Below are positions 5,091-25,213 of a DNA stretch of 64,000 nt, piece after piece (position 1 is the stretch's first letter; every line of letters begins with the position of its first letter). The notes under the pieces were generated by a model. The model had not been told where the DNA came from. It saw only the letters and a list, made by a program, of their open reading frames with translations, and did no database searches. The DNA is from Pseudoalteromonas rubra. GTDB taxonomy: Bacteria > Pseudomonadota > Gammaproteobacteria > Enterobacterales > Alteromonadaceae. Location of the stretch: positions 1,798,001 to 1,862,000 of the forward strand of contig NZ_CP013611.1 of NCBI RefSeq assembly GCF_001482385.1, in the 5' to 3' direction. Made by a program: the position numbers and the translations under genes.

Positions 5091-5834
5091 ATGGAAACAA
5101 TAAATCATAACTCGGACAGTCAAAGTGCCGGTGGAGGCGTCAATCGCGAGCATGGCCGCACCATAGCGCAAAGGTGGACCTTTGTCGGCCTGCACTTTGG
5201 CTTAGTGCTTTTCTGCGCCTGGCTGGCAGTAGCTGACGGCTGGACCCTGATTGGCCAACTGTTTGGCCAACAATGGACGCTGGTTGATAACGACAGGGCA
5301 CTGCTTATGCTGGCCTGTGTGTTTGTCTACTGGCTACGCCATGCCATTACAGTGCTTTACCTGCTACAACGCAGAATTGACTGGGGAGAAGCTTTGGGTT
5401 TGCTGTGCTTTATGGCTTTTTTCGAAATAGGCCTGTTACTGGTCGGCGGTGGCGCATTCAGAAACGAGGTGATCCCTTTTGGGACTCTGGACATAGTAGC
5501 GCTGGTTCTGCTAATCGTTGGCTCGTATCTGAACAGTGGCTCTGAGATCCAACGAAAGTGGTGGAAACAAGACCCGGCAAACAAAGGCCGGTGCTACACA
5601 GAAGGTCTGTTTAAGCATTCAATGCACATCAACTACTTTGGGGATGTCGTGCTGTTCACGGGCTGGTGCTTACTGAGTTATAACTACTGGACGCTGTTGC
5701 TGCCCTTCTTTATGGCGTATTCGTTTATCAGTTTCCATATTCCGGCACTCGATGGCTACTTGTCTGAGCGTTATGGAGAGAAGTTCGACCAATACGCAGC
5801 CAAAACCAAAAAGCTGATCCCCTTCGTCTACTAA
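5091..5834 (+). CDS. Isoprenylcysteine methyltransferase / DUF1295-like membrane protein
   Basis: 247 residues from the ATG at 5091, chosen because AGGA lies 6 nt upstream; an ATG at 5073 lacks this. Several TM helices are followed by a C-terminal block with CYTEGLFKHSMHINYFGDVV and YGEKFDQYAAKTKKLIPFVY. This matches the membrane methyltransferase / steroid 5-alpha-reductase-like superfamily (ICMT, DUF1295, NnrU relatives), where the block forms the cofactor pocket. It probably acts on a membrane lipid together with the hydroxylase encoded just upstream. The family call is good; the chemistry is open (SAM methylation or NADPH reduction). Confidence 0.75.
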   Translation: METINHNSDSQSAGGGVNREHGRTIAQRWTFVGLHFGLVLFCAWLAVADGWTLIGQLFGQQWTLVDNDRALLMLACVFVYWLRHAITVLYLLQRRIDWGEALGLLCFMAFFEIGLLLVGGGAFRNEVIPFGTLDIVALVLLIVGSYLNSGSEIQRKWWKQDPANKGRCYTEGLFKHSMHINYFGDVVLFTGWCLLSYNYWTLLLPFFMAYSFISFHIPALDGYLSERYGEKFDQYAAKTKKLIPFVY

Positions 5835-5842
5835 CCTTGTCT

Positions 5843-5879
5843 GTCAGGCTCAGCGGCCCTCATCGCCTCTGAGTCTGAC
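5843..5879. terminator. Convergent stem-loop terminator
   Basis: Inverted repeat GTCAGGCTCAG / CTGAGTCTGAC (one mismatch) between the stop codons of two convergent genes. Confidence 0.55.
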
Positions 5880-5893
5880 GTGTCATACCCTAC

Positions 5894-7738
5894 CTATCTA
5901 CCCGCAGCCATCAAATTGAGTGCCAGCAACTGTGCTTCATTCTGCATTCGCCAATCTGACGTTGCATGCTCACTGATATACTGTGCATAGAAGTCGCTAT
6001 TCACGCCTGACTCAACTGGCATCTGACATAACAGCAACGCCACGTCGAGACCAATTCGGCGCTCTCCTGACAACTGAGCCAGCTCAAAGGCACGCAACGC
6101 CAGGGGCAAAAGTTCAGCCTGAGTTTGCACGGCTGCCGCGTACATGACTGACAAATAAGCATTTTCTGCATTATCCTGACGCACACTGGTGATCAGTGAT
6201 TCGGCCTCCTCAAAACGCGCTTCACGCAAATAATAACGAACCAGCGATTTACGGCTGGACTGAGCCACCCAATGATTCGGTGTCAGTGCCGTATATTCCA
6301 GCACGCGCCGATAGTGTGGTTCTTTGTCAGCTGGTTTGTCTGCAAAAATAGCATAGTGGAAAGGCACTTTAGCAAAGTGGTAAACCGGCAGCTCATAGTC
6401 CCGCATTTTCTCCTCTGCCAGTCTTAAATAATGATACTTGTCATCATCCTGCTGATTTTTACTCGCCATTATCGACAAGTAAGTCAGCGCATCTAACTCT
6501 CTGGCAATGTCCTGTGTCTGTCGGGCCAGCTGTGCGGAATGAAGCAAGCTCGCTTTAACCTGCCCATAATCTCGCTGCAAATGATACAACCAGGAACGGC
6601 TGTGCCAGACGTCTGACTGAGCTCTCAGATCCTGACTAACCTCCAGCGCCTGCAATGCCATATCTAGTCTTATCAGACTGAGGTCGACCAGGTTTTTGCG
6701 TAACAAAATCTCCCCCTGATATGCCAGAGCACGCCCCTCTTGCTGAGTGTTAGTCTGCGCTTTGGCCAGCACGGCCAGTTTTTCAGCCATCGCCATCGCC
6801 TTCTCTAATTCGTGTACATCCAGATACGCATTGACCAATGCCCCCAGTAGGATCAGATCTTCAGGTGTCCGCTGATGAGCCTGCGTCAGCATGGCCAGCT
6901 TAAGGTCAGGTGAGTGGGCATGCTGCAACAAAGATGCAACGACCGGCTGACTGAGATGCTGATAGAGCTTCTGCTGCACGGCTTGTGAGGTTGCACCATG
7001 CAGCACCCCCTGCCACTGACCTGCCGGGCCTTTGAGCCAGAAAGTCAGATACCAAAGCGCATCAACCTGACGCACACTGGCTGTGAGGATCACCGGATGC
7101 TGCACTGCCACCTCAGGATACACCAATTCCTGCGATGTTCTGAAATTCGCCGCAGAAAGCGTAGTCAGGGACGTAAAATTCAGCTGTGTGGTGTCTTGTA
7201 GTTGCCACTGTTCAGGTTCCGAGCCTTCAAATGGCAAATAAGTTATTGAAAAGCTTTCCGATTGCGCTTCATCGCGCTGCAGCACAAAAACAAACGCCAG
7301 CAACACCAATAAGGAAATAAGTGATACCCCCAGCCAGTTGCTGACTCTGTGGCGTGCTGAAACGTCAGTGTCAACGGGTGTCACGGTTATGGGCGCATGA
7401 ACAGTGTCCGAAGTGATGAGAGGGCGTGTTATCGGGGCGGCGTTCACGCCTGTTACCTGGCGCTGCCACTGGTAACCTCGCTTAGCAAAGGTTTTGATGG
7501 CATCATTACCAAATAAAGCACGTAAATGACTGATATTCTGAAACACAGCCTGTTCAGAGACGACTTTGTCTTGCCAGACCTGGTCCAAAATTTCCTCTTT
7601 ACTCAGTACTCTGTGGGTATTTGCCAGTAACAGAGCCAGTAATTTTGCTTCATTATGACGAATAGCAAGTGCGGTGCCTGCACGAAGCAAGATCAAATCA
7701 ATACTATCGAACTCAAAGTCATCGAACTGGTAGCGCAT
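5894..7738 (-). CDS. CadC-like winged-helix transmembrane regulator with TPR-like sensor
   Basis: 614 residues. Residues about 5-95 form an OmpR/PhoB-type winged helix (LSKEEILDQVWQDKVVSEQ, then FAKRGYQWQ at the wing). A proline/threonine linker leads to one TM segment near 134-153 (LGVSLISLLVLLAFVFVLQ). The rest is a large periplasmic part rich in helical, TPR-like pairs. This is the ToxR/CadC plan, in which a membrane-bound regulator senses the periplasm without a kinase. The target is unknown. It is transcribed alone, convergent to the lipid-modification pair. A second, smaller protein of this type lies at 31348. Confidence 0.85.
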   Translation of the reverse strand: MRYQFDDFEFDSIDLILLRAGTALAIRHNEAKLLALLLANTHRVLSKEEILDQVWQDKVVSEQAVFQNISHLRALFGNDAIKTFAKRGYQWQRQVTGVNAAPITRPLITSDTVHAPITVTPVDTDVSARHRVSNWLGVSLISLLVLLAFVFVLQRDEAQSESFSITYLPFEGSEPEQWQLQDTTQLNFTSLTTLSAANFRTSQELVYPEVAVQHPVILTASVRQVDALWYLTFWLKGPAGQWQGVLHGATSQAVQQKLYQHLSQPVVASLLQHAHSPDLKLAMLTQAHQRTPEDLILLGALVNAYLDVHELEKAMAMAEKLAVLAKAQTNTQQEGRALAYQGEILLRKNLVDLSLIRLDMALQALEVSQDLRAQSDVWHSRSWLYHLQRDYGQVKASLLHSAQLARQTQDIARELDALTYLSIMASKNQQDDDKYHYLRLAEEKMRDYELPVYHFAKVPFHYAIFADKPADKEPHYRRVLEYTALTPNHWVAQSSRKSLVRYYLREARFEEAESLITSVRQDNAENAYLSVMYAAAVQTQAELLPLALRAFELAQLSGERRIGLDVALLLCQMPVESGVNSDFYAQYISEHATSDWRMQNEAQLLALNLMAAGR

Positions 7739-7800
7739 AGTGTTATGTAATTGTTATTGTCCTATTCAGTAACAAGCATAACCCAATTATGATTAAAACA

Positions 7801-8178
7801 CTAAAGGTGCAACAACACAGCTTCTCGCTGTTTTTTGGTCATCTTCTGCACCACCAACAGAAACGAATTATCAATCATCCGCTCTATTTCTCCACGAGGT
7901 ACAGAGCCGTCCAGGATCACCGTGTTCCAAAGTCGCTTATTCATATGATAACCGGGGATCACAGCCTCAAAAATATCCCGCAATGCCTGCGCCTCATCCG
8001 GATCACACTTCAGATTCAGCCACCAATGACGCGTTTCACCTTCGTTATATCTGCCCGGTGACAAGGTGGCGAACATTTTGTCTTTCACTTTAAACACATC
8101 TACATCGGGTCCAAAGGGTTGCCCGACGCTAGAAAAGGGTTTATTGAGCAGGTAAGTATGGGCTTGTGTATGGTCCAT
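7801..8178 (-). CDS. MmcQ/YjbR family protein
   Basis: 125 residues. It matches the MmcQ/YjbR fold (CyaY-like DNA-binding family): KPFSSVGQPFGPDVDVFKV at the start, WWLNLKCDPDEAQALRD in the middle, and PGYHMNKRLWNTVILDG then a C-terminal helix. These small cytoplasmic proteins bind DNA in some members, but their role is undefined. AAGGA lies 7 nt before the ATG. It is on the same strand as its neighbours but separated by more than 60 bases on each side. Confidence 0.85.
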   Translation of the reverse strand: MDHTQAHTYLLNKPFSSVGQPFGPDVDVFKVKDKMFATLSPGRYNEGETRHWWLNLKCDPDEAQALRDIFEAVIPGYHMNKRLWNTVILDGSVPRGEIERMIDNSFLLVVQKMTKKQREAVLLHL

Positions 8179-8240
8179 GTTTTAGTCCTTTAAAAATATC
8201 TAAACACACCATACACGTTCAAACACCGCCTGCCAATCCG

Positions 8241-8888
8241 CTAAATGACTGACTCACGCTCTCCATATGTTGTGAAAATATGCTTGTAGAAATGCGCTTT
8301 GTGAGCCATCAATAACGCAGCACGTTTATGAGGAAAATCAAACTCGAATTGTTTGTCGTAGCCGAGCTCTGCCATGCGGGTCATCAGTCGCGCATTGTCA
8401 GCTCTGGGTTCCAGCACAATACGCTGAGTCTGTGGCTGACTCTGATAGATTAAATGGCTGAGGCTGGTCATCCAGCCGCGAAAGTTCTCAGGGCCACGGC
8501 AACTTTGCTCACCCACTAGCAAATGTATCCCGCGATCATACACTGACGCCTCATAATAGTGTGCCAGCTTGTCTTCTGCCGCCCAGTATACTTCCAGATA
8601 AGCAAAAGGCTGCTGATCCAGATAGCCTATCAAAGGCAAAGTGTGGGCATCGGCTAGTTTGTCACTCAAGTACTGCCATTGTTTTTCTTCACTCCAGGCT
8701 TGTTGCCAGAAGTGCGCAACCCTGGGGTCGTTCATCCAGCGGCACAAACGTGGCAAATCATCTAGGCAGATTAATTTAATTGAAAAACGCTTGTCCAAAA
8801 AAGTGTTGTGGTGATAGGCCAGTTCAGCCCCCATTTGGCACGCTCCGATATGCACATTTTGCTTTGTCCAAAACTCACTCAAAGTCAT
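8241..8888 (-). CDS. GNAT acetyltransferase of the siderophore (IucB/RhbD) type
   Basis: 215 residues. It shows the conserved blocks of siderophore-biosynthesis acyltransferases: WMNDPRVAHFWQQAWS, PLIGYLDQQPFAYLEVYWAA, YDRGIHLLVGEQSCRGPE, VLEPRADNARLM and FDFPHKRAALLM. IucB-type enzymes acetylate N6-hydroxylysine (or acylate related hydroxamate precursors) using acyl-CoA, in the cytoplasm. Here it stands alone: no lysine monooxygenase, NIS synthetase or NRPS is nearby. The N-terminus is shorter than in IucB, so this is the GNAT half only. It may be a remnant of, or an accessory to, a siderophore pathway elsewhere, or modify another substrate. Confidence 0.82.
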   Translation of the reverse strand: MTLSEFWTKQNVHIGACQMGAELAYHHNTFLDKRFSIKLICLDDLPRLCRWMNDPRVAHFWQQAWSEEKQWQYLSDKLADAHTLPLIGYLDQQPFAYLEVYWAAEDKLAHYYEASVYDRGIHLLVGEQSCRGPENFRGWMTSLSHLIYQSQPQTQRIVLEPRADNARLMTRMAELGYDKQFEFDFPHKRAALLMAHKAHFYKHIFTTYGERESVI

Positions 8889-9370
8889 ATACTCATCATT
8901 AAAGTTACACTACATTACAAAAATATGACGATTGTAATGAGAAGTAATTTACCCAAATAGGTACATAATAATGCATAGCTGGAGAAATTAAATAACCAGT
9001 TTACCTGGTGTGGGAACTTCGACAGTTTTAAGCTAGAAATGTACGCAACTAAGCCCAAAACAGATGCCAGAGGGTACTCTATAAAACATTAACATCAGAC
9101 CTTTTGCACCAATTTAGGTTAAATACAAATGCGGACTGATATCAAACTTCGTTTGCTTTTTATAAATAATTATAAAAAGCTCGTCAGTACTGACCACAAT
9201 TCCCAGGGGTTGTCCAGCTCAAGCCTGGTGGGCTCTATACTGAAGGTATTGATAAATAATAAGGTCAGTTTGGCAGGTAACACATATGAAACGAACGCAG
9301 CACAAACAACTTTTATCACGCGCATAATTTGCGACACATCCATTCCACATAACAACAACACTGCAGGTTT
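8889..9370. other. Intergenic region without recognised gene
   Basis: 482 bases. Overlapping short ORFs on both strands (63-84 residues) look like noise: neither has a Shine-Dalgarno sequence or recognisable protein, and they overlap antisense. The part next to 8888 should carry the promoter of the acetyltransferase. No repeat or hairpin of note was seen. Confidence 0.4.
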
Positions 9371-17334: not shown

Positions 17335-17471
17335 TGTTCTTCCTTATATAATCCATTTACACTGTATATAAACACAGCCAAAAGGAAAAGGGAAAATTGT
17401 TCTGTGTGTTACAATCAACATAAAAAACTTTGAATTCCCTTAGCTATCAAAAAGTTAAAACATGGATGTTT

Positions 17472-18089
17472 ATGAAAATCATTGTTGCCGATGACCACCA
17501 TATTGTCAGGCAGGGACTGCTTGCTCTTATTCAAAAAGCACAAATTGGCACCATCATCGCCGATACCGATTCAGGCGAACAAGCATGGTCTCTGATCCGC
17601 TTACATGAACCAGATATCGCAATTTTGGATATCACCATAGGCGACATAAGCGGGTTGAGTATCTGCCGCCGCATACAGGCACATGAACTGAAAACACGGG
17701 TGATCTTCCTTACCGAGCATAAAGATATCAAAGTCATCGACTATGCCCTGGAGGCAGGGGCATCGGGTTACTTGCTCAAAAACGATACCTTTGCCACTTT
17801 GGTTGATGCTATGCAGGCCGTATACCTGGGTAAGGGTTACATCAGCCCCGCCAACAAAAAACAGCTACATCATTACCGCACCAACAAGTCTGATTTTGAG
17901 ATCACATTCAGAGAAAAAGAAATAATCCGCCACATTGCTCAAGGGCAAACCAATAAAGAGATTGGCGAAGCCCTGTGTATTTCGGCCAAAACAGTGGATG
18001 CACATCGTACCCGGGTTATGAAAAAGCTTGGGTTCAATAAAGCAGCCCAGTTAGTGCGCTTCGCGCTCAAAGAAGGCATTTGCTTCTGA
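17472..18089 (+). CDS. NarL/FixJ-type response regulator, orphan
   Basis: 205 residues from the ATG at 17472, chosen because the receiver domain starts there (MKIIVADDHHIVRQGLLALI). The acidic pair DD, the phospho-acceptor Asp in IAILDITIGDISG, and Lys in YLLKND are all present. The C-terminal LuxR-type HTH is complete: EKEIIRHIAQGQTNKEIGEA then SAKTVDAHRTRVMKKLGF. No histidine kinase is adjacent; the nearest is the TPR kinase at 33347. It lies just upstream of the dockerin-cohesin locus on the same strand, but with a 370-base gap, so a link is only possible, not shown. Confidence 0.92.
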   Translation: MKIIVADDHHIVRQGLLALIQKAQIGTIIADTDSGEQAWSLIRLHEPDIAILDITIGDISGLSICRRIQAHELKTRVIFLTEHKDIKVIDYALEAGASGYLLKNDTFATLVDAMQAVYLGKGYISPANKKQLHHYRTNKSDFEITFREKEIIRHIAQGQTNKEIGEALCISAKTVDAHRTRVMKKLGFNKAAQLVRFALKEGICF

Positions 18090-18180: not shown

Positions 18181-18400
18181 GTTGAAGGATCCTCAACGAT
18201 TTCAAAATAATTAAGGACAACAAAATGACTATATGATGACGGCTCACCTTCACCACGACGGTACCATCCCCCAGCAGGATGCGAACTTTGACAAGCAAAG
18301 ACGACTAAGCCTGGGGGTGCAAACACCCTCCCATAATTTAAGAGGACCTGGCACTTTTACCAACACAACTCTGGGTTAGATGCGCTAGAGATGTTGGTAA
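18181..18400 (+). promoter_or_regulatory. Structured 5' leader of the first dockerin gene, possible RNA switch
   Basis: The 370-base gap before the first dockerin gene has no credible ORF but several strong inverted repeats. They are GTTGA/TCAAC around AGGATCC at 18181-18197; CCCCCAG 18268-18274 with CTGGGGG 18311-18317, enclosing CTTTG/CAAAG 18286-18300; GGGTG 18315-18319 with CACCC 18324-18328; and TTACCAACA 18357-18365 with TGTTGGTAA 18392-18400. The GGGTG stem shares bases with the CTGGGGG stem, so the two exclude each other, as in a riboswitch or attenuator. No known riboswitch class fits well. Function is inferred only. Confidence 0.4.
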
Positions 18401-18459: not shown

Positions 18460-20550
18460 ATGAAACTAATCTCCGAAATTATCGGTGCAAATCAATTCGC
18501 CCAAACCACACTGGCCAGTTCAGGTAAGCGCCTGTCACGTATCGCGTTGGCAATCGCTCTGTGCAGCTTACCTACACTAAGTCACGCAATTTCGCCACTC
18601 AAAGTAGGTAGCGAATTTTTAGTCAATACACATACTTCAGAGCGCCAAAACTCCCCTTCAGCAGGCCGCCTCAATGACGGACATTTCTTGATCGCATGGG
18701 AAAGTCAAAAACAGGACGGCAGTGATAGTGGTATTTATGCACAACGTTACGATGCGTCGGGCAGCCCTCTAGGGTCTGAATTTCGCGTCAATAGTATGAC
18801 CAGCGGATTCCAAATGCGGCCTCAGGTTGCGACGCTTCATGATGGGAGCTTTGTAGTCGCTTGGGAAACAAACGGAGCCGATGGAACAGGGATCGCTGCG
18901 CAACACTTCAATGCTGATGGCACCCGTGCCGGCGGAGAAATAACACTGTATAAAAACGCTACTCGAATAGTTAGCAAAATGTCCATTTCCACTCTGGCGA
19001 GCGGAGGATATCTCATCGGGTGGGTTGAACATTCCTTGAATTATTCAAGTTCAGAGGCATTTGTTCGCGCCTTTAATAACCGTGGCGTAGTGCAAACACC
19101 TCAACTCATAAGGAAGTCGGGAGCATATCTACCCAGCATTGTAGAAACCAGTGACAATGGATTTTTTATGATTGCATCGTCCAAAAGCGACGTTCGTCTT
19201 ATAGGTCAACGATATGATGCCAACGGCAACATCAAAGACTCGGAATTTTATATCAGTACAACAAGTGATTTTAAAGACTTCGATTACTCGCTAAGCCGAC
19301 TAAGCAACGGCGAATTCGTCGCAGTTTGGACCAGCTTAGGTCGCGATGGTGAAAATAGTGGCGTATATGCAAGGCATTTTGATACTAATGGTATTGCAAA
19401 AGGGCCTGATTTCTTGGTCAATACAGTTACGCGAGGCCAACAAATGAGGCCTACTGTCGCAGCACTTGATAACGGTGGCTACCTGGTTAGCTGGCATGAA
19501 GACAGAACCCAGCATGGCATTTCCGTACAAGCATTTAACAACGATGGTAGCCGCAATGGAGAAGTCTTTTTAGCCAACACTAGCACTGATAAGATACCGT
19601 TTGAACCTACTATCAGCATCCTCAGTGAGAGAGATTTTATCATTGGTTGGACGAGCCAGGCGGCCTCAAAAGACACCAACATTTATGCACAACGATTCCA
19701 GCTTGAAGCCGCTCAGGCTAATACAATGACAATCACGCTGCCGCAAACCACAGTGTTAGAAGGTGACGTGGTCACGCTGCCCCTGCAAGTATCTGGTGCT
19801 GACATTTACGGCCTGGATGCCGTGGTGAGCCTGAGTGATACCACCAAAGCCCGCATTTCTGGCGGGGAATATGGCGAGTTTCTGCCTTCGGATGAACGTT
19901 TATCCGTGCCCATGGGTATCAGTGACAATCAATGGGATGGTGCACTGGCGCTGATGGCCCCGGCCACCGCCAAATCGGGCGAAGGTAACTTTGCCACTGT
20001 CACCCTGATTGCCGAGCAAGCCGGGTCGGTGAACCTCACCTTGCAAGCACAAATGACCGACCAGCAAGGCAACTACCTGCTCCAGGATAATACCGACTAT
20101 ACATTGACCATCCAAGAATCCGTGACTTTGACCGGCAATGTTGCCGACTTAGGCATTGCTGGTGACTTTATATACGTCACCCTCACTATCAACGGACAGC
20201 GTGTCACCATTAATCCCGATGGCAGCTTTTCCGTGCGCGTCGGCCTGGGCGAGGTCACTATGTCTCTGAGTGCACCGGGCCACCTTACGGCCGAGAAACA
20301 AGTCACGCTGGCTGCGGGTCAGGCTGATATCGACTTTGGTCAGATTAACCTCGTCGGCGGTGACAGTAATGGCGATAACCTCATCGACATTGCTGACCTG
20401 ACTCAGTTACTGGGTGCCTACCGCTCTGTCGATGGCCAACAAAACGGTTATGTGATGGCCGCTGACTTTAACCGTGACGGTGCCATTAACCTGCAGGATT
20501 TGACCCTGCTGGGTGCCAACTTTGGTAAACAAGGACCACAAAGCTGGTAA
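18460..20550 (+). CDS. Secreted propeller-cohesin-dockerin protein (first copy)
   Basis: 696 residues. A long N-region leads to a signal peptide at about 24-46 (IALAIALCSLPTLSHA). Residues about 50-415 hold seven imperfect repeats of about 50 residues (DGSFVVAWE, GIYAQRYDASG, DNGGYLVSWHE), which suits a seven-bladed beta-propeller. Residues about 422-550 look like a cohesin-fold beta-sandwich (TVLEGDVVTLPLQVSGADIY). About 552-625 is a carboxypeptidase-regulatory-like sandwich. The C-terminus from about 632 is a type I dockerin with two calcium loops, DSNGDNLIDIADL and DFNRDGAINLQDL. AAGGA lies 7 nt before the ATG. The next gene encodes a membrane cohesin, its likely partner. Known dockerins bind cohesins in a calcium-dependent way; assembly here is inferred. 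Confidence 0.88.
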   Translation: MKLISEIIGANQFAQTTLASSGKRLSRIALAIALCSLPTLSHAISPLKVGSEFLVNTHTSERQNSPSAGRLNDGHFLIAWESQKQDGSDSGIYAQRYDASGSPLGSEFRVNSMTSGFQMRPQVATLHDGSFVVAWETNGADGTGIAAQHFNADGTRAGGEITLYKNATRIVSKMSISTLASGGYLIGWVEHSLNYSSSEAFVRAFNNRGVVQTPQLIRKSGAYLPSIVETSDNGFFMIASSKSDVRLIGQRYDANGNIKDSEFYISTTSDFKDFDYSLSRLSNGEFVAVWTSLGRDGENSGVYARHFDTNGIAKGPDFLVNTVTRGQQMRPTVAALDNGGYLVSWHEDRTQHGISVQAFNNDGSRNGEVFLANTSTDKIPFEPTISILSERDFIIGWTSQAASKDTNIYAQRFQLEAAQANTMTITLPQTTVLEGDVVTLPLQVSGADIYGLDAVVSLSDTTKARISGGEYGEFLPSDERLSVPMGISDNQWDGALALMAPATAKSGEGNFATVTLIAEQAGSVNLTLQAQMTDQQGNYLLQDNTDYTLTIQESVTLTGNVADLGIAGDFIYVTLTINGQRVTINPDGSFSVRVGLGEVTMSLSAPGHLTAEKQVTLAAGQADIDFGQINLVGGDSNGDNLIDIADLTQLLGAYRSVDGQQNGYVMAADFNRDGAINLQDLTLLGANFGKQGPQSW

Positions 20551-20557
20551 CAAAAAC

Positions 20558-20588
20558 GACAGGGGAGGGTCTTACACTAACCCCTGTC
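20558..20588 (+). terminator. Intercistronic stem-loop, possible attenuator
   Basis: GACAGGGG / CCCCTGTC (8 bp) lies in the 60-base gap between the dockerin and cohesin genes. It lacks a T-tract, so partial termination or mRNA processing is more likely than full termination. The second cassette has a hairpin at the same place with an unrelated sequence. Confidence 0.5.
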
Positions 20589-20610
20589 TTGAATTTCAAG
20601 GAACCAAAAA

Positions 20611-21270
20611 ATGAAATATATGCTGTACATTGCCACATTACTGGCAAGCCTTAGCACGTTTGCAGAGCAAGGGCGAATTTACCTCGAAACTCCTAACCCG
20701 CAAATAAAGACCGGCAGTGAATTTTATGTCGATGTGATGGTGGCAGAGCTGCCTGATGTGTACGGCACGCAGCTTACCCTGAACTATGACAGTCAATCCA
20801 TCACCTTCATAGATCAGGACACCAAAACCAGAGGGGCTCAGCTAGAGCATGGTAATTTTCTTAACACCAGAAATCTGTATGTATTGCGAAATCAAGCGAA
20901 TACGCAACACGGAACAATACAATATATTGTGAGCCAGGTTGCACCGGTAAAAAGCGCATCCGGAGATGGCCGCCTCGCCAGACTATATTTTACGGCACCA
21001 GATAACGCAGCCATAAATACTATCTCAATTGAAGTTGCTGAGTTTGGCACTCGTAATGGAGAAAAATACACGTACAAAGCAAACACGCCTCTGAGCTTAC
21101 AGTTCGATAGTGGCTATCAAGTTCAGGCTAGCCCGGGTATTAGCATAAAGACCTGGATAATAAGCTTGGCCATTGTACTGTCATTGATTGCGCTAACAGT
21201 ATTCTTCCTGAGGTCACGGGCATTAAAATTAAAGATGAAAAACATCACTGCAAGCCAGGCACTCCAGTAA
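20611..21270 (+). CDS. Membrane-anchored cohesin protein (first copy)
   Basis: 219 residues. Signal peptide to about residue 18 (LYIATLLASLSTFA). Residues about 20-165 match a cohesin domain: IKTGSEFYVDVMVAELPDVY, TQLTLNYDSQSITFID, GTIQYIVSQV and GDGRLARLYFTAP follow the cohesin strand order. One TM segment follows at about 180-200 (ISLAIVLSLIALTVFFL) and then a basic tail, so the cohesin faces the periplasm, or the cell surface if the chain is exported further. AAGGA precedes the ATG. It should act as the membrane receptor for the dockerin protein encoded 60 bases upstream. Cohesins are best known from clostridial cellulosomes, but no cellulase is nearby. Confidence 0.85.
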   Translation: MKYMLYIATLLASLSTFAEQGRIYLETPNPQIKTGSEFYVDVMVAELPDVYGTQLTLNYDSQSITFIDQDTKTRGAQLEHGNFLNTRNLYVLRNQANTQHGTIQYIVSQVAPVKSASGDGRLARLYFTAPDNAAINTISIEVAEFGTRNGEKYTYKANTPLSLQFDSGYQVQASPGISIKTWIISLAIVLSLIALTVFFLRSRALKLKMKNITASQALQ

Positions 21271-21278
21271 AATCACAT

Positions 21279-21294
21279 GCCCCCGCACGGGGGC
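21279..21294 (+). terminator. GC-rich stem-loop after the first cohesin gene
   Basis: GCCCCC-GCAC-GGGGGC hairpin 9 bases past the stop codon. No T-tract follows. Its position marks the end of the first cassette. The remaining 257 bases to the next gene show no gene; they should hold a promoter for the second cassette. Confidence 0.55.
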
Positions 21295-21551
21295 TAGCTC
21301 AAATCGTAATATTCACGTTTCCAGGCCCGCATTTATTCAGTTTCTTGACGTATCCGCACGAAAAACTAACTTAATGTACGCGTTAAAATCGTATCACACA
21401 GTATGCAAGACTGAACTATCACCATTTGCACCTACCCAATTAAAAGGCACTACTCCCTTTTCATTAAATTTATGATCAATTATCCTAGCCGGGTGCATAC
21501 GAACTTGACCCAAAAAACGGGACAAACATAATAATGTAAGGAAATAGTACT

Positions 21552-23651
21552 ATGACACTTTTAAATACCCGCTCAAATACGACTCCCCCCACTAAATCAA
21601 TCAAAAAGTTTGCCCGCAATGCAGTCATGCTCAGCTTACTGGGCCTGCCGTTACTCAGTAACGCGCAAGCACCTGTACAAGTTGGAGACCCATTTGTTGT
21701 CAACAATTGGAAGGATCAAACACAATACTTCCATGAGACCGCCGTACTGAAAGACGGCAGTTATGTCGCGATTTGGACAGGCAAAGACCCAATGTTTGGA
21801 CAGGACCCGGTGTTCGCTCAACGCTTTAATGCAGATGGCACACTGGCTGGCGGAGAAACTTATTTGAGTTACTCACCCACGCATCGCCACAACTCTGCTG
21901 CTATCAGCCCACTCAATGACGGCGGCTATGCGACCGCCTGGTCGCGTTATAAAGACAATTCAACTGATTTAGTTGTCCGCACCTTTGATGCGGACGGCAC
22001 CCCCAGGATCGACGAATTAGTGATAAAATCTGTCCAGAGGGACTTACTTAGCAGTCCGACAGTCACCACACTTAGTAACGGCGAATTTGTTGTAGCCTGG
22101 TCCCACTCCAATCCGATCGCTGCCGATGGTGATATCTATGCACAACGCTTTCTCGCCAATGGTACACCAGCCAGTGACCCACTTATCGTCACAAGTACCG
22201 TTGAGCATAACCAACAACATGTCTCGCTGACCGCATTAAGCGATGGCAAATTTATGGCCTCCTGGCATGGTAAAGGAATTGGCGATGACCACGGTGTTTA
22301 TATTCGTACATTCGCAGCGGATGGCACACCACTCACTGATGAAACCTTGGTCAATGAAAACAGCTATGGTCAGCAGCAAAACGCTGCAATCGATACGCTG
22401 CCAGATGGTAGCGTTGTCGTGACCTGGGTAAGCTTAACAGCTGACAGCACAGACATTATGGTCAAACGTATGAATGCTAATGGTACTCCGGCTGGACAAC
22501 AAACTTTGGTAGATCAATCGACAGTTAACCTGTTCACCATCCCTTCTGTAGCTGCTCTGAGCGATGGCCGCTATGTGCTGTCCTGGCAGGGAGAAGACGA
22601 CATTGCCAGCCCCGCTTATCTATATACCCGAGCGTATAACGCCAATGACACCGCAACCGGTGACAAAGTGACAATATCGAGTTTGCACTATGCTGGTGTA
22701 CAAAATCAGGTAACCGCACTATCTGATCAAGACTATATTATCCACTGGTCAGATGAAAATGTATTTACTAGCATGGACGTATTCGGCCAGCACATGACAC
22801 TAAATGGTGGGCCTGCAACTGCACTGACACTGGAATTACCGCAAACCACAGTCCTTGAGGGGGATACAATTACCCTGCCACTCACTGTATCAGGCAGCGA
22901 TATCTATGGCATTGATGCGTCAGTCCGTGTCAGTGCGATGTTCGATATGGCCCGTATCACCGGCGGTGAATATGGCGAGTTTTTACCATCTGATGAACGC
23001 CTGTCAGTACCCATGGGGATCAGTGACAAACAGTGGGACGGTGCATTGGCTTTAATGGCCCCCGCCACAGCGAAATCAGGTGAAGGTCAGTTTGCCTCTG
23101 TCCAGTTACTTGCAGAGCAAGCTGGTATGATTAACCTGGTCGTCAATGCAAAAATGACTGACCAAGAGTCTAACTATTTACTGAACAATGAAGTCTCTTA
23201 TTCACTGGCCATCGAAGAGTCGGTGACGCTAACAGGCAACGTTGCAAGCCTTGGTGTCACCGGTGATTACAGCAATATCGTACTACGCATCAATGGTCAG
23301 CTCGTCACCACTAATCCAGATGGTAGCTTCTCAGTGCGTTCCCCGCTGGGCAACGTAACACTGTCACTTGAGGCACCCGGATACCTGAGTGCAGAAAAGC
23401 AACTCAACTTCTCCGCGGGTCAGGAAGATATCGACTTTGGACAGATTGAACTCGTCGGCGGAGACAGCAACGGTGATAACCTCATTGATATTGCTGACTT
23501 GACGCAGCTACTGGGTGCTTATCGTACTAAAAAGTCAGACAACAACGGCTACGTCTCTGATGCAGACTTCAACGGAGACAATGAAATCAACATCCAGGAC
23601 TTGACCTTAATGGGTGCCAACTTTGGCAAACAAGGGCCGCAAAGCTGGTAA
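21552..23651 (+). CDS. Secreted propeller-cohesin-dockerin protein (second copy)
   Basis: 699 residues, a paralogue of the protein starting at 18460, with the same plan. Signal peptide near 20-40 (AVMLSLLGLPLLSNAQA). Seven repeats lie at about 50-415 (DGSYVAIWTGKD, NGEFVVAWSHSN, DGRYVLSWQGED). The cohesin-like domain starts at about 422 (TVLEGDTITLPLTVSGSDIY), a beta-sandwich is at about 555-630, and a type I dockerin runs from about 635 with DSNGDNLIDIADL and DFNGDNEINIQDL. Blocks such as GGEYGEFLPSDERLSVPMG and the last residues NFGKQGPQSW are identical in both copies, while the repeats have diverged strongly. This points to an old duplication with selection on the assembly modules. AAGGA lies 9 nt before the ATG. 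Confidence 0.88.
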   Translation: MTLLNTRSNTTPPTKSIKKFARNAVMLSLLGLPLLSNAQAPVQVGDPFVVNNWKDQTQYFHETAVLKDGSYVAIWTGKDPMFGQDPVFAQRFNADGTLAGGETYLSYSPTHRHNSAAISPLNDGGYATAWSRYKDNSTDLVVRTFDADGTPRIDELVIKSVQRDLLSSPTVTTLSNGEFVVAWSHSNPIAADGDIYAQRFLANGTPASDPLIVTSTVEHNQQHVSLTALSDGKFMASWHGKGIGDDHGVYIRTFAADGTPLTDETLVNENSYGQQQNAAIDTLPDGSVVVTWVSLTADSTDIMVKRMNANGTPAGQQTLVDQSTVNLFTIPSVAALSDGRYVLSWQGEDDIASPAYLYTRAYNANDTATGDKVTISSLHYAGVQNQVTALSDQDYIIHWSDENVFTSMDVFGQHMTLNGGPATALTLELPQTTVLEGDTITLPLTVSGSDIYGIDASVRVSAMFDMARITGGEYGEFLPSDERLSVPMGISDKQWDGALALMAPATAKSGEGQFASVQLLAEQAGMINLVVNAKMTDQESNYLLNNEVSYSLAIEESVTLTGNVASLGVTGDYSNIVLRINGQLVTTNPDGSFSVRSPLGNVTLSLEAPGYLSAEKQLNFSAGQEDIDFGQIELVGGDSNGDNLIDIADLTQLLGAYRTKKSDNNGYVSDADFNGDNEINIQDLTLMGANFGKQGPQSW

Positions 23652-23660
23652 TACTCTTAA

Positions 23661-23687
23661 AAAGACCATAGCAATGCTATGGTCTTT
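23661..23687 (+). terminator. Intercistronic stem-loop, possible attenuator
   Basis: A perfect 12-bp stem, AAAGACCATAGC / GCTATGGTCTTT, with a 3-nt loop, followed by TTTGATG, lies 10 bases after the dockerin stop and 20 bases before the cohesin start. It may lower expression of the anchor relative to the large protein. Confidence 0.6.
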
Positions 23688-23707
23688 GATGCTTATTGGG
23701 ACAAAAA

Positions 23708-24352
23708 ATGATAAAGAGTTTGATGTTAAGCACCTCATTGCTGCTGAGTTTTGCCTCTTTGGCAACTGAAGGCAAGGTATTTCTTGAAACCTCCAATACA
23801 CAAATCAAGACAGCCAGCGAGTTCTATATTGATGTGATGGTCAAAGACCTGCCTGCAGTATATGGCGTTCAGCTGTCAGTCACCTATGATCCACAGACGC
23901 TAACGCTCATTGACCAAGATCCTAAAGCCACTGGAGCACAGCTTGAGCATGGCGATTTTCTGGATACCAAGCGATTGTATACTTTGCGCAACCAGGCAAC
24001 CCCTAAATCGAGAGAAGTACAGTATATCGTCAGCCAGGTGGCCCCCGCTGAAAGTGCGTCAGGAGATGGCCGACCGGCCAGGCTTTATTTTTCAGCGCCG
24101 GAGGGTGCAACTACCACAGATATTTCAATCAAGCGTGTCGAATTTGGCACCCGAAATGGTGAAAAGTACCTATATCACGCACATAAGCTACTCAACCTAA
24201 GTTTCAATGCACGGTACCAGGAACAAGAAAAGCCCAGCTCTGGCACGCCAGCCTGGCTACTGATGCTATTGGCTTTGCTGTCTGTCAGCATCATTGCGAT
24301 GCTTTTCTGGCGCAAGATGAATTCACGAGGAAGAACTGAGCAGAGCGCGTAA
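23708..24352 (+). CDS. Membrane-anchored cohesin protein (second copy)
   Basis: 214 residues from the ATG at 23708 (GGGA lies 6 nt upstream; a TTG at 23696 is less likely). Paralogue of the protein at 20611. Signal peptide to about 18, cohesin domain at about 20-165 (IKTASEFYIDVMVKDLPAVY, VTYDPQTLTLIDQD, YIVSQVAPAESASGDGR, FGTRNGEKYLY), TM segment near 182-202 (WLLMLLALLSVSIIAMLFW) and a basic tail, RKMNSRGRTEQSA. The tail of about 13 residues after the TM is longer than in GlyGly-CTERM or PEP-CTERM sorting signals, so a plain C-terminal inner-membrane anchor is the simplest reading. Likely partner of the dockerin protein upstream. Confidence 0.85.
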   Translation: MIKSLMLSTSLLLSFASLATEGKVFLETSNTQIKTASEFYIDVMVKDLPAVYGVQLSVTYDPQTLTLIDQDPKATGAQLEHGDFLDTKRLYTLRNQATPKSREVQYIVSQVAPAESASGDGRPARLYFSAPEGATTTDISIKRVEFGTRNGEKYLYHAHKLLNLSFNARYQEQEKPSSGTPAWLLMLLALLSVSIIAMLFWRKMNSRGRTEQSA

Positions 24353-24846: not shown

Positions 24847-25213
24847 GCGAAGCTTTGCTTCGGTCTTGAACAAGCGAAGAATGGTCACACGTCCATGTGG
24901 GGGGCTTCCGGCTCGACATCCATGTCTCGCGTTCACAAAAAAAGAGATACTTAATCTCTGGTACGAGCGGGCACACGTCCGTGTAGAGGGCTTCCGGCTC
25001 GACGTCCATGTCTCGCGTTCGCAAAAGAAGATCTGGTACGAGTGGACACACGTCCGTGTGGAGGGCTTCCGGCTCGACGTCCATGTCTCGCGTTCGCAAA
25101 AAAAGAGATACTTAATCTCTGGTACGAGCGGGGACACTTCCATGTGAAGGGCTTCCGGCTCACCCGTCCATGGGTGAGCGTTCAGCAAGCTGCGAAGCTT
25201 TGCTTCGGTCTTG
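24847..25213. repeat. Tandem array of 86-bp palindromic units framed by a direct repeat
   Basis: The block GGGCTTCCGGCTC starts at 24902, 24988, 25063 and 25149, giving unit lengths of 86, 75 and 86. The short unit lost 11 bases within AGAGATACTTAATCTCT. Each unit carries inner palindromes: CACACGTCCGTGTG, GACGTC, and AGAGAT...ATCTCT. A 22-bp element beginning GCGAAGCTTTGCTTCGG occurs on both edges, at 24847-24868 and 25192-25213, in the same orientation. The array begins inside the last codons of the symporter gene, so the end of that protein is repeat-derived. It looks like an extragenic palindromic repeat family, not a CRISPR. Confidence 0.8.

Follow-up and report, generated by a model that had tools for sequence, protein, structure and literature searches.

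Paired cohesin and dockerin genes in Pseudoalteromonas: a probable plug-and-socket tether with interchangeable heads outside any cellulosome

Why would a Gram-negative bacterium without a cellulosome carry paired cohesin and dockerin genes? The question is raised by a 64,000-nucleotide stretch of the 5.9 Mb Pseudoalteromonas rubra genome (C1:1798001-1862000; hereafter the window), in which four open reading frames form two operon-like pairs after a response regulator gene. In each pair a large secreted-type protein (Lg), with a propeller head and a tail of cohesin-like, X-like and dockerin modules, is followed by a small protein (Co) with a single cohesin and a C-terminal membrane anchor; Lg1 and Co1 are separated by 60 bp, and Lg2 and the listed TTG start of Co2 by 44 bp. 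We regard it as probable that each pair constitutes a plug-and-socket tether with interchangeable heads, operating outside any cellulosome. The most surprising part of the locus is that the tails of the Lg proteins are constant while their heads have been exchanged between strains. The features concerned are:

18460-20550, + strand: Lg1, 696 residues, with signal peptide, propeller, internal cohesin-like domain, X-like module and dockerin
18598-19701, + strand: propeller head of Lg1 (residues 47-414), the variable part
19720-20115, + strand: internal cohesin-like domain of Lg1, CohL (residues 421-552), from a Pfam match below cut-off, a beta sandwich and hhalign
20116-20343, + strand: X-like module of Lg1, CarboxypepD_reg-like, from Pfam matches below cut-off and the tail profile alignment
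20359-20529, + strand: dockerin of Lg1, two Ca-binding loops, apparently type II-like (Dockerin_1 26.2 bits; best matches scaffoldin X-dockerins)
20611-21270, + strand: Co1, 219 residues, with signal peptide, cohesin, transmembrane anchor (about 21154-21210) and basic tail
21552-23651, + strand: Lg2, 699 residues, architecture as in Lg1 with a diverged head and similar tail; dockerin at about 23460-23630
22815-23216, + strand: internal cohesin-like domain of Lg2, from alignment to CohL of Lg1
23696-24352, + strand: Co2, 218 residues from the listed TTG, with signal peptide, cohesin, transmembrane stretch (about 24248-24304) and basic tail; the ATG at 23708 (214 residues) is the more likely start
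17430-18089, + strand: response regulator of the LuxR/NarL type (Response_reg 86.8 bits, GerE 64.3 bits)

An earlier note, made from the letters alone, had proposed cohesin and dockerin domains in what looked like a marine gammaproteobacterium, and had named the profile searches by which to check them. The host is a Pseudoalteromonas, and Pfam recovers both families, its curated cut-offs being 22.9 bits for Dockerin_1 (PF00404), 24.1 bits for Cohesin (PF00963) and 27 bits for Glucodextran_B. The first pair lies above them (Lg1 dockerin 26.2 bits, Co1 cohesin 30.9 bits) and the second just below (Lg2 dockerin 20.4 bits, Co2 cohesin 21.8 bits); in the genome-wide search the Lg2 dockerin rises above its cut-off (24.7 bits), and Co1 and Co2 share 56% identity across 184 residues (E 3e-75). 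Both dockerin loops are intact in Lg1 (DSNGDNLIDIAD and DFNRDGAINLQD) and in Lg2, and the predicted structure of Co1 is a jelly-roll resembling solved cohesins. The note's picture of two cassettes, each a large dockerin protein with a small cohesin protein, stands, except that it overlooked the internal cohesin-like and X-like modules of Lg. CohL scores 20.3 bits with Pfam Cohesin in Lg1 and 13.5 bits in Lg2, both below cut-off, forms a beta sandwich in the Lg1 model and aligns with the Co family by hhalign (probability 65, 116 columns); since it falls short of the threshold for Cohesin, we term it cohesin-like only. The X-like module of Lg1 matches CarbopepD_reg_2 (23.0 bits) and Glucodextran_B (25.9 bits), again below cut-off.

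At E<=1, PF00963 matches four proteins of the host genome, one match each in Lg1, Co1, Lg2 and Co2 and none elsewhere, and PF00404 matches Lg1, Lg2, an 1118-residue protein on C2 that has no glycoside hydrolase family, and a stray at E 0.876. The host genome thus has neither a multi-cohesin scaffoldin nor a dockerin-bearing glycoside hydrolase, in agreement with the absence of a cellulosome context claimed before.

The dockerins had also been called type I, and this assignment did not hold. PF00404 covers type II dockerins as well. When a profile of 22 Lg tails was searched against the PDB, the best matches were scaffoldin X-dockerins (4e-11 to 2e-9), with 4wi0_B (4.3e-11), 2b59_B (3.1e-10) and 3kcp_A (8.6e-10) in the lead, and the alignments to these X-dockerins (CipA, scaffoldin 4wi0_B) take in the module preceding the dockerin; the highest-ranking enzyme-borne dockerin that we take to be type I, 2yik, came at 5e-5. 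A profile of 21 Co proteins had a single clear match, 5g5d_A (6.3e-6; the next at 0.017), an anchoring type II cohesin from the structure titled CohScaC2-XDocCipA type II complex, whose partner chain also figures in the Lg-tail list (2.2e-9). A structural alignment of the Lg1 model to the scaffoldin fragment 3kcp_A covers 306 columns (TMt 0.39); the fragment has a cohesin at 8-154 and an X-dockerin at 196-306. Judged by sequence, Lg tails and Co are type II-like, their nearest counterpart in the PDB being the clostridial type II anchoring pair.

The constancy of the tails emerges from a comparison of 26 of the 29 Lg open reading frames of the genus, all longer than 600 residues (a remnant at locus L067 and two pieces at L085 were left out). 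Over their 325 pairs mean identity is 26% in the head, 50% in CohL, 55% in the X module and 69% in the dockerin, and in 324 pairs the dockerin is more similar than the head. The same holds within loci: six paralogue pairs have heads 19-51% and dockerins 44-100% identical, those of L071 combining 25% in the head with 100% in the dockerin and 99% in the DNA of X module plus dockerin. In the window the propellers of Lg1 and Lg2 are 23% and their dockerins 78% identical, which marks this duplication as either old or mosaic. The P. rubra P0016 protein (1106 residues) is an apparent fusion of two Lg copies, fitting either recombination between tandem copies or misassembly.

Comparison of close strains shows where the heads are replaced. 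Lg1 of the window and the Lg at the equivalent position of L079 share 97% identity in the regulator, 97% in the dockerin and 25% in the head, and blastn homology between the two loci ends at window position 18227 and restarts at 19749, just inside CohL. L080 and L081 have flanks with 93.9-94.8% DNA identity, yet the head does not align by blastn (E 1e-10) and is 37% identical in protein. Of the 22 Lg pairs whose tail DNA, beyond the best breakpoint, is 85% identical or more, 18 have heads below 65% and count as mosaic. The breakpoints cluster near the start of CohL, with a median at about residue 432, quartiles at 427 and 450 and a range of 354-459. The nearest head and the nearest tail belong to the same protein in only nine of the 26. 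Unswapped cases also occur (Lg2 and its L079 counterpart, heads 92% identical; L074 and L075, 91-94%), and at the thresholds set a clean reassortment conflict appears in one triplet only, so that the donors of heads lie mostly outside the sample.

It might be argued that the tails are kept alike by gene conversion among tandem Lg copies and that the heads simply drift, as the near-identical tail DNA of the tandem copies in L071 and L082 would allow. However, L080 and L081 carry a single Lg each and differ in the head despite their similar flanks, and Lg1 and its L079 equivalent combine 97% identity in regulator and dockerin with 25% in the head; we consider tail homogenisation unlikely. What the mosaic pattern suggests instead is that homologous recombination near the start of CohL would swap signal peptide and propeller en bloc, leaving the plug untouched. 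In our proposal the head block can be replaced in this way because docking depends on the tail only, and block replacement would in turn explain why strains carry different heads on one tail.

Is Lg consistently accompanied by Co? Family profiles run on 108 Pseudoalteromonas genomes found Co in 22, and the 20 genomes with an Lg tail all belong to these 22 (Fisher p 7.9e-20, the genomes not being independent); two of the 88 Lg-less genomes hold Co. With Pfam alone (E<=0.1) Cohesin is detected in 24 of these genomes (19 above cut-off) and Dockerin_1 in 43 (24 above). The window and 24 further Co-holding loci, annotated by BLAST, contain 27 Co genes (28 less a 47-residue fragment in genome G032) and 28 Lg tails (29 less a weak row at 9.9e-4, a protein of the 1118-residue type). 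An Lg lies directly upstream of 23 of the 27 Co genes (one being the L067 remnant), all 28 tails belong to arrays closing with a Co, and the gap between Lg and Co is below 100 bp in all 22 cases measured. Five arrays place two Lg genes ahead of one Co, while the window and L079 alternate Lg-Co-Lg-Co. In one of the five, L085 (3031-5075), the first Lg is split into two overlapping open reading frames, which may reflect sequencing error, decay or phase variation. As all 20 Lg-tail genomes hold Co and the genes stand side by side in this order, the pairing is not chance; the conserved linkage that the earlier note had asked about is thus found within the genus.

From the domain families we infer that Lg, through its type II-like X-dockerin with calcium bound, would lock into the cohesin of Co and so hold the propeller at the membrane. 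Seawater contains about 10 mM calcium; the dockerin loops would therefore normally be filled, and a calcium switch is not supported.

Several results weigh against the plug-and-socket reading. The Co1 model is modest (predicted local distance difference test, pLDDT, 63), that of Lg1 is poor at the dockerin, and the CohL profile had no match in the PDB profile search. In the VIA structure ranking of Co1, C. perfringens cohesins come top and type I and type II cohesins lie near each other; because VIA places the types so close together, the type II call rests on sequence and Foldseek order. The sheet of Co that we presume to bind the dockerin is no more conserved than the other (0.715 versus 0.709, p 0.72, in 19 of 23 paired Co proteins after removal of near-identical ones). 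Distances of Co and dockerin correlate at 0.93, barely above the 0.87 of the control, Co with the response regulator, so that the correlation is mostly shared descent, and we dropped co-evolution as evidence of binding. Four Co genes (L070, L073, L077 and L086) come straight after the regulator with no Lg, and their products lack the glycines G118 and G120, invariant in paired Co proteins. Genomes with such a lone Co are G025 and G037, and also G029 and G104, in which it occupies a second locus and an Lg-Co pair sits elsewhere. At L067 (G010) Co is kept while Lg is reduced to a headless 188-residue X-dockerin remnant (6827-7393) adjoining an oppositely oriented gene. Co can therefore persist without its supposed partner. 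Lastly, L080 and L081 are more alike in their flanks than in the tail-Co stretch (88.0%), and the tract exchanged there may thus exceed the head.

The Lg-less Co genes and the ordinary conservation of the expected binding sheet would suit an alternative in which cohesin and dockerin no longer bind but act as structural spacers, with a linkage that goes back to an ancestral operon. Against it, no part of Lg is better conserved than the dockerin, its calcium loops are kept in the alignment and the tails stay constant while the heads change, and we judge this alternative very unlikely. It is also conceivable that Lg self-assembles, CohL binding the dockerin of another Lg and the chains ending on membrane-bound Co, since both modules reside in one polypeptide in the order seen in the CipA fragment 3kcp_A. 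However, CohL by eye lacks most of the residues conserved in Co, and neither its Pfam score below cut-off nor the blank PDB search favors a working cohesin; self-assembly seems to us quite improbable. We therefore retain the reading of an Lg plug docking into a Co socket.

Where would this socket be located? Co1 begins with a hydrophobic segment, signal-peptide-like by eye, ending STFA, and closes with a transmembrane-like stretch and a basic tail; by hydropathy all 27 Co proteins, Co2 included, have a hydrophobic N-terminus and such a stretch with its K/R tail. The membrane anchor recognised by the earlier note is thereby upheld, but the display that it coupled with tethering, taken as display on the surface, is not, because a signal peptide combined with a C-terminal transmembrane segment and basic tail predicts an inner-membrane tether facing the periplasm. 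The Co anchor would then be a plain stop-transfer helix, with the socket most likely on the periplasmic side of the inner membrane.

Display at the surface, through processing of the Co anchor or its transfer to the outer membrane so that the propellers face outward, for example as strain-variable adhesins or decoys, nonetheless has some attraction. Replacement of heads between close strains is typical of exposed proteins, the host genome encodes a rhombosortase (165.7 bits), and in two other Gammaproteobacteria the cohesin-type neighbor of a dockerin gene ends in a VPLPA-CTERM-like sequence (L156 20.6 bits, L157 16.7 bits, both below the 25.35 cut-off). However, no exosortase was matched in the host genome, Co1 and Co2 have no NCBIfam match to PEP-CTERM or GlyGly-CTERM and hence no sorting motif on which the rhombosortase might act, and no common motif ahead of the transmembrane stretch is visible by eye in the 27 aligned Co proteins. 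Surface display is in our view somewhat unlikely, and the periplasm-facing tether remains the reading we carry forward.

As for the cargo, structure comparison bears out the propeller fold proposed for the Lg head, with a sialidase-like resemblance and further likeness to PLL/CV39L lectins, CylK and integrin alpha heads; at about 8-13% identity to these last, a common fold alone is no proof of function. The head may bind some ligand that varies, and the lectin-like folds make a glycan our first guess. Enzymatic activity could be envisaged because the fold is sialidase-like and Lg1 matches the accessory-type domain Glucodextran_B, although below cut-off, and the head might then be a tethered sialidase-, lyase- or CylK-like enzyme instead of a binding module. 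However, Lg1 and Lg2 have no enzyme family above cut-off and propeller folds are common to many non-enzymes, so that we find a tethered enzyme distinctly unlikely. Neither the Lg proteins nor the scanned neighbors (a sortilin/BNR propeller protein, LysE, a TonB receptor, GFA, the response regulator, a Na/alanine symporter, DDAH and Hsp70) matched a catalytic glycoside hydrolase family in Pfam, as the earlier note had maintained.

A homologue of the response regulator is present at 19 of the 25 Co-holding loci, and transcription of the pairs is probably linked to it. Scans for promoters and terminators yielded about as much as those of shuffled sequences. Just before the 3' end of the symporter gene the window contains two copies, 94% matching, of a 75-bp unit (24957-25106), and short stretches resembling this unit also align in L079.

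Beyond the locus, the closest relative of Co1 is P. rubra PRUB_a2506 (91% identical). A pattern scan of genome contigs with the Co alignment returned 25 stretches, of which 14 encode relatives, all from Pseudoalteromonas (including rubra, luteoviolacea, amylolytica and byunsanensis), and a Co search among 394 genomes drawn from the order, few of them from the genus, found the own genome only, its query being narrow (16 rows). In 369 genomes of the class the Lg-tail profile has weak matches in seven other genomes, mostly to the dockerin alone. Pfam finds Cohesin in 29 of these gammaproteobacterial genomes (E<=0.01), Dockerin_1 in 42 (E<=0.001) and both in nine (Fisher 0.0025), and in seven of the nine, own genome included, they share a protein or are no more than about 5 kb apart (a shared protein in G673; G573, listed with 7% contamination, may represent a contaminant contig). 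In G781 and G813 a cohesin-type protein of roughly 200 residues with a VPLPA-like end (21.3 bits, under the cut-off, and 24.6 bits, over it) directly follows a dockerin gene, the order of the window. This suggests that linked cohesin and dockerin pairs are recurrent but sparse in Gammaproteobacteria, the Pseudoalteromonas form being the one with a plain transmembrane anchor and exchanged heads.

A third pair in the host genome was considered and rejected. At L009 (5206-9124, on C2) the 1118-residue dockerin protein (5768-9124), which combines CarboxypepD_reg with a dockerin, overlaps an upstream gene for a 190-residue lipoprotein-like product that is cohesin-like by eye; the latter has no Pfam family and ranks 148 of 151 with the Co profile and 144 of 151 with the CohL profile in hhalign, the null being 150 open reading frames drawn from 211. 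Its relatives at L091 and L093 rank 140 and 126 (Co) and 6 and 50 (CohL), and none of seven relatives has a Pfam domain. The neighborhood of the 1118-residue protein recurs at L091 and L093, and the lipoprotein could be an anchor, but it gave no cohesin match. For proteins near gammaproteobacterial dockerin genes that are cohesins by eye, the ranks are 1, 60, 48 and 126 (Co) and 29, 3, 10 and 91 (CohL) for L132, L135, L137 and L134, respectively. L134 and L137 are not supported as cohesins by these ranks; L135 is linked indirectly, being 39% identical (E 5e-27) to an L156 protein with a sub-threshold PF00963 match (21.3 bits).

Some of these loci have dockerin proteins of other kinds. L135 (7283-9433, NHL repeats) and L156 (1395-2972, PQQ sugar-dehydrogenase-like) encode propeller-type dockerin proteins, each beside a cohesin-type gene. 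At L134 (2743-11490) three consecutive dockerin-type proteins (cytochrome peroxidase-like, unknown and multicopper oxidase-like), the second and third below the dockerin cut-off, follow a small VPLPA-CTERM protein. In Pseudoalteromonas itself a dockerin match occurs in an M43 protease with PKD domains adjoining an M9 collagenase gene (L094, 2786-9178), and giant frames of 4599-7548 residues with many weak dockerin-like repeats are present in G030 (C1, about 4516360-4527228), G031 (C4) and G104 (C5).

Among known systems, the clostridial type II anchoring pair (the CipA X-dockerin; 2b59, 3kcp, 5g5d) is the closest, both in the order cohesin-X-dockerin at the C-terminus of the cargo and in an anchoring protein that bears the partner cohesin, and the Lg-tail and Co profiles both match it first. 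Unlike the clostridial cargo with its row of enzyme-binding cohesins, Lg has one internal cohesin-like domain; its host is Gram-negative, its propeller is variable and the scanned proteins have no glycoside hydrolase family above cut-off. Clostridial anchoring proceeds via S-layer homology (SLH) domains or sortase, whereas the Co anchor is a transmembrane helix. The notion of dockerin-anchored proteins is already curated in NCBIfam NF041540 (GC-type dockerin domain-anchored proteins), which does not match the window proteins but does match, at 29.5 bits (cut-off 29), a 433-residue gammaproteobacterial protein of L157 adjoining a cohesin gene.

Cohesins and dockerins outside cellulosomes are well established (PMC9012536), those of Archaeoglobus, ANME archaea and the C. 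perfringens glycosidases likewise acting as connectors outside cellulose breakdown, but adjacent genes in a fixed order with exchanged heads, as in Lg and Co, have no parallel in the section of that source consulted. No publication on a Pseudoalteromonas Lg/Co system appeared among the matches listed (titles and starts of abstracts), nor was one found on dockerin jointly with PEP-CTERM, most subscription journals lying outside both searches. PADLOC anti-phage models matched none of the four locus proteins, PHROGs gave one match (E 0.078) that was not used, and collections of plasmid and phage sequences gave none. The Lg-Co system combines side-by-side genes, conservation as a unit in one genus, a simple membrane helix as anchor and head replacement at a defined junction.

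These results raise the possibility, which we hold tentatively and with a little less than even confidence, that the Lg proteins are modular receptors of Gram-negative bacteria, in which a constant cohesin-X-dockerin plug carries whole propeller heads swapped by recombination at a built-in junction domain, so that strains with the same membrane sockets would each carry a different set of ligand-binding heads. The use of cohesins and dockerins outside cellulosomes is mostly unclear, and the Lg/Co pairs offer a concrete, testable case of why a non-covalent plug might be kept: it would separate the job of anchoring from the part that changes fast. If the proposed binding is true, they would also supply small, seawater-adapted cohesin and dockerin parts for protein engineering.

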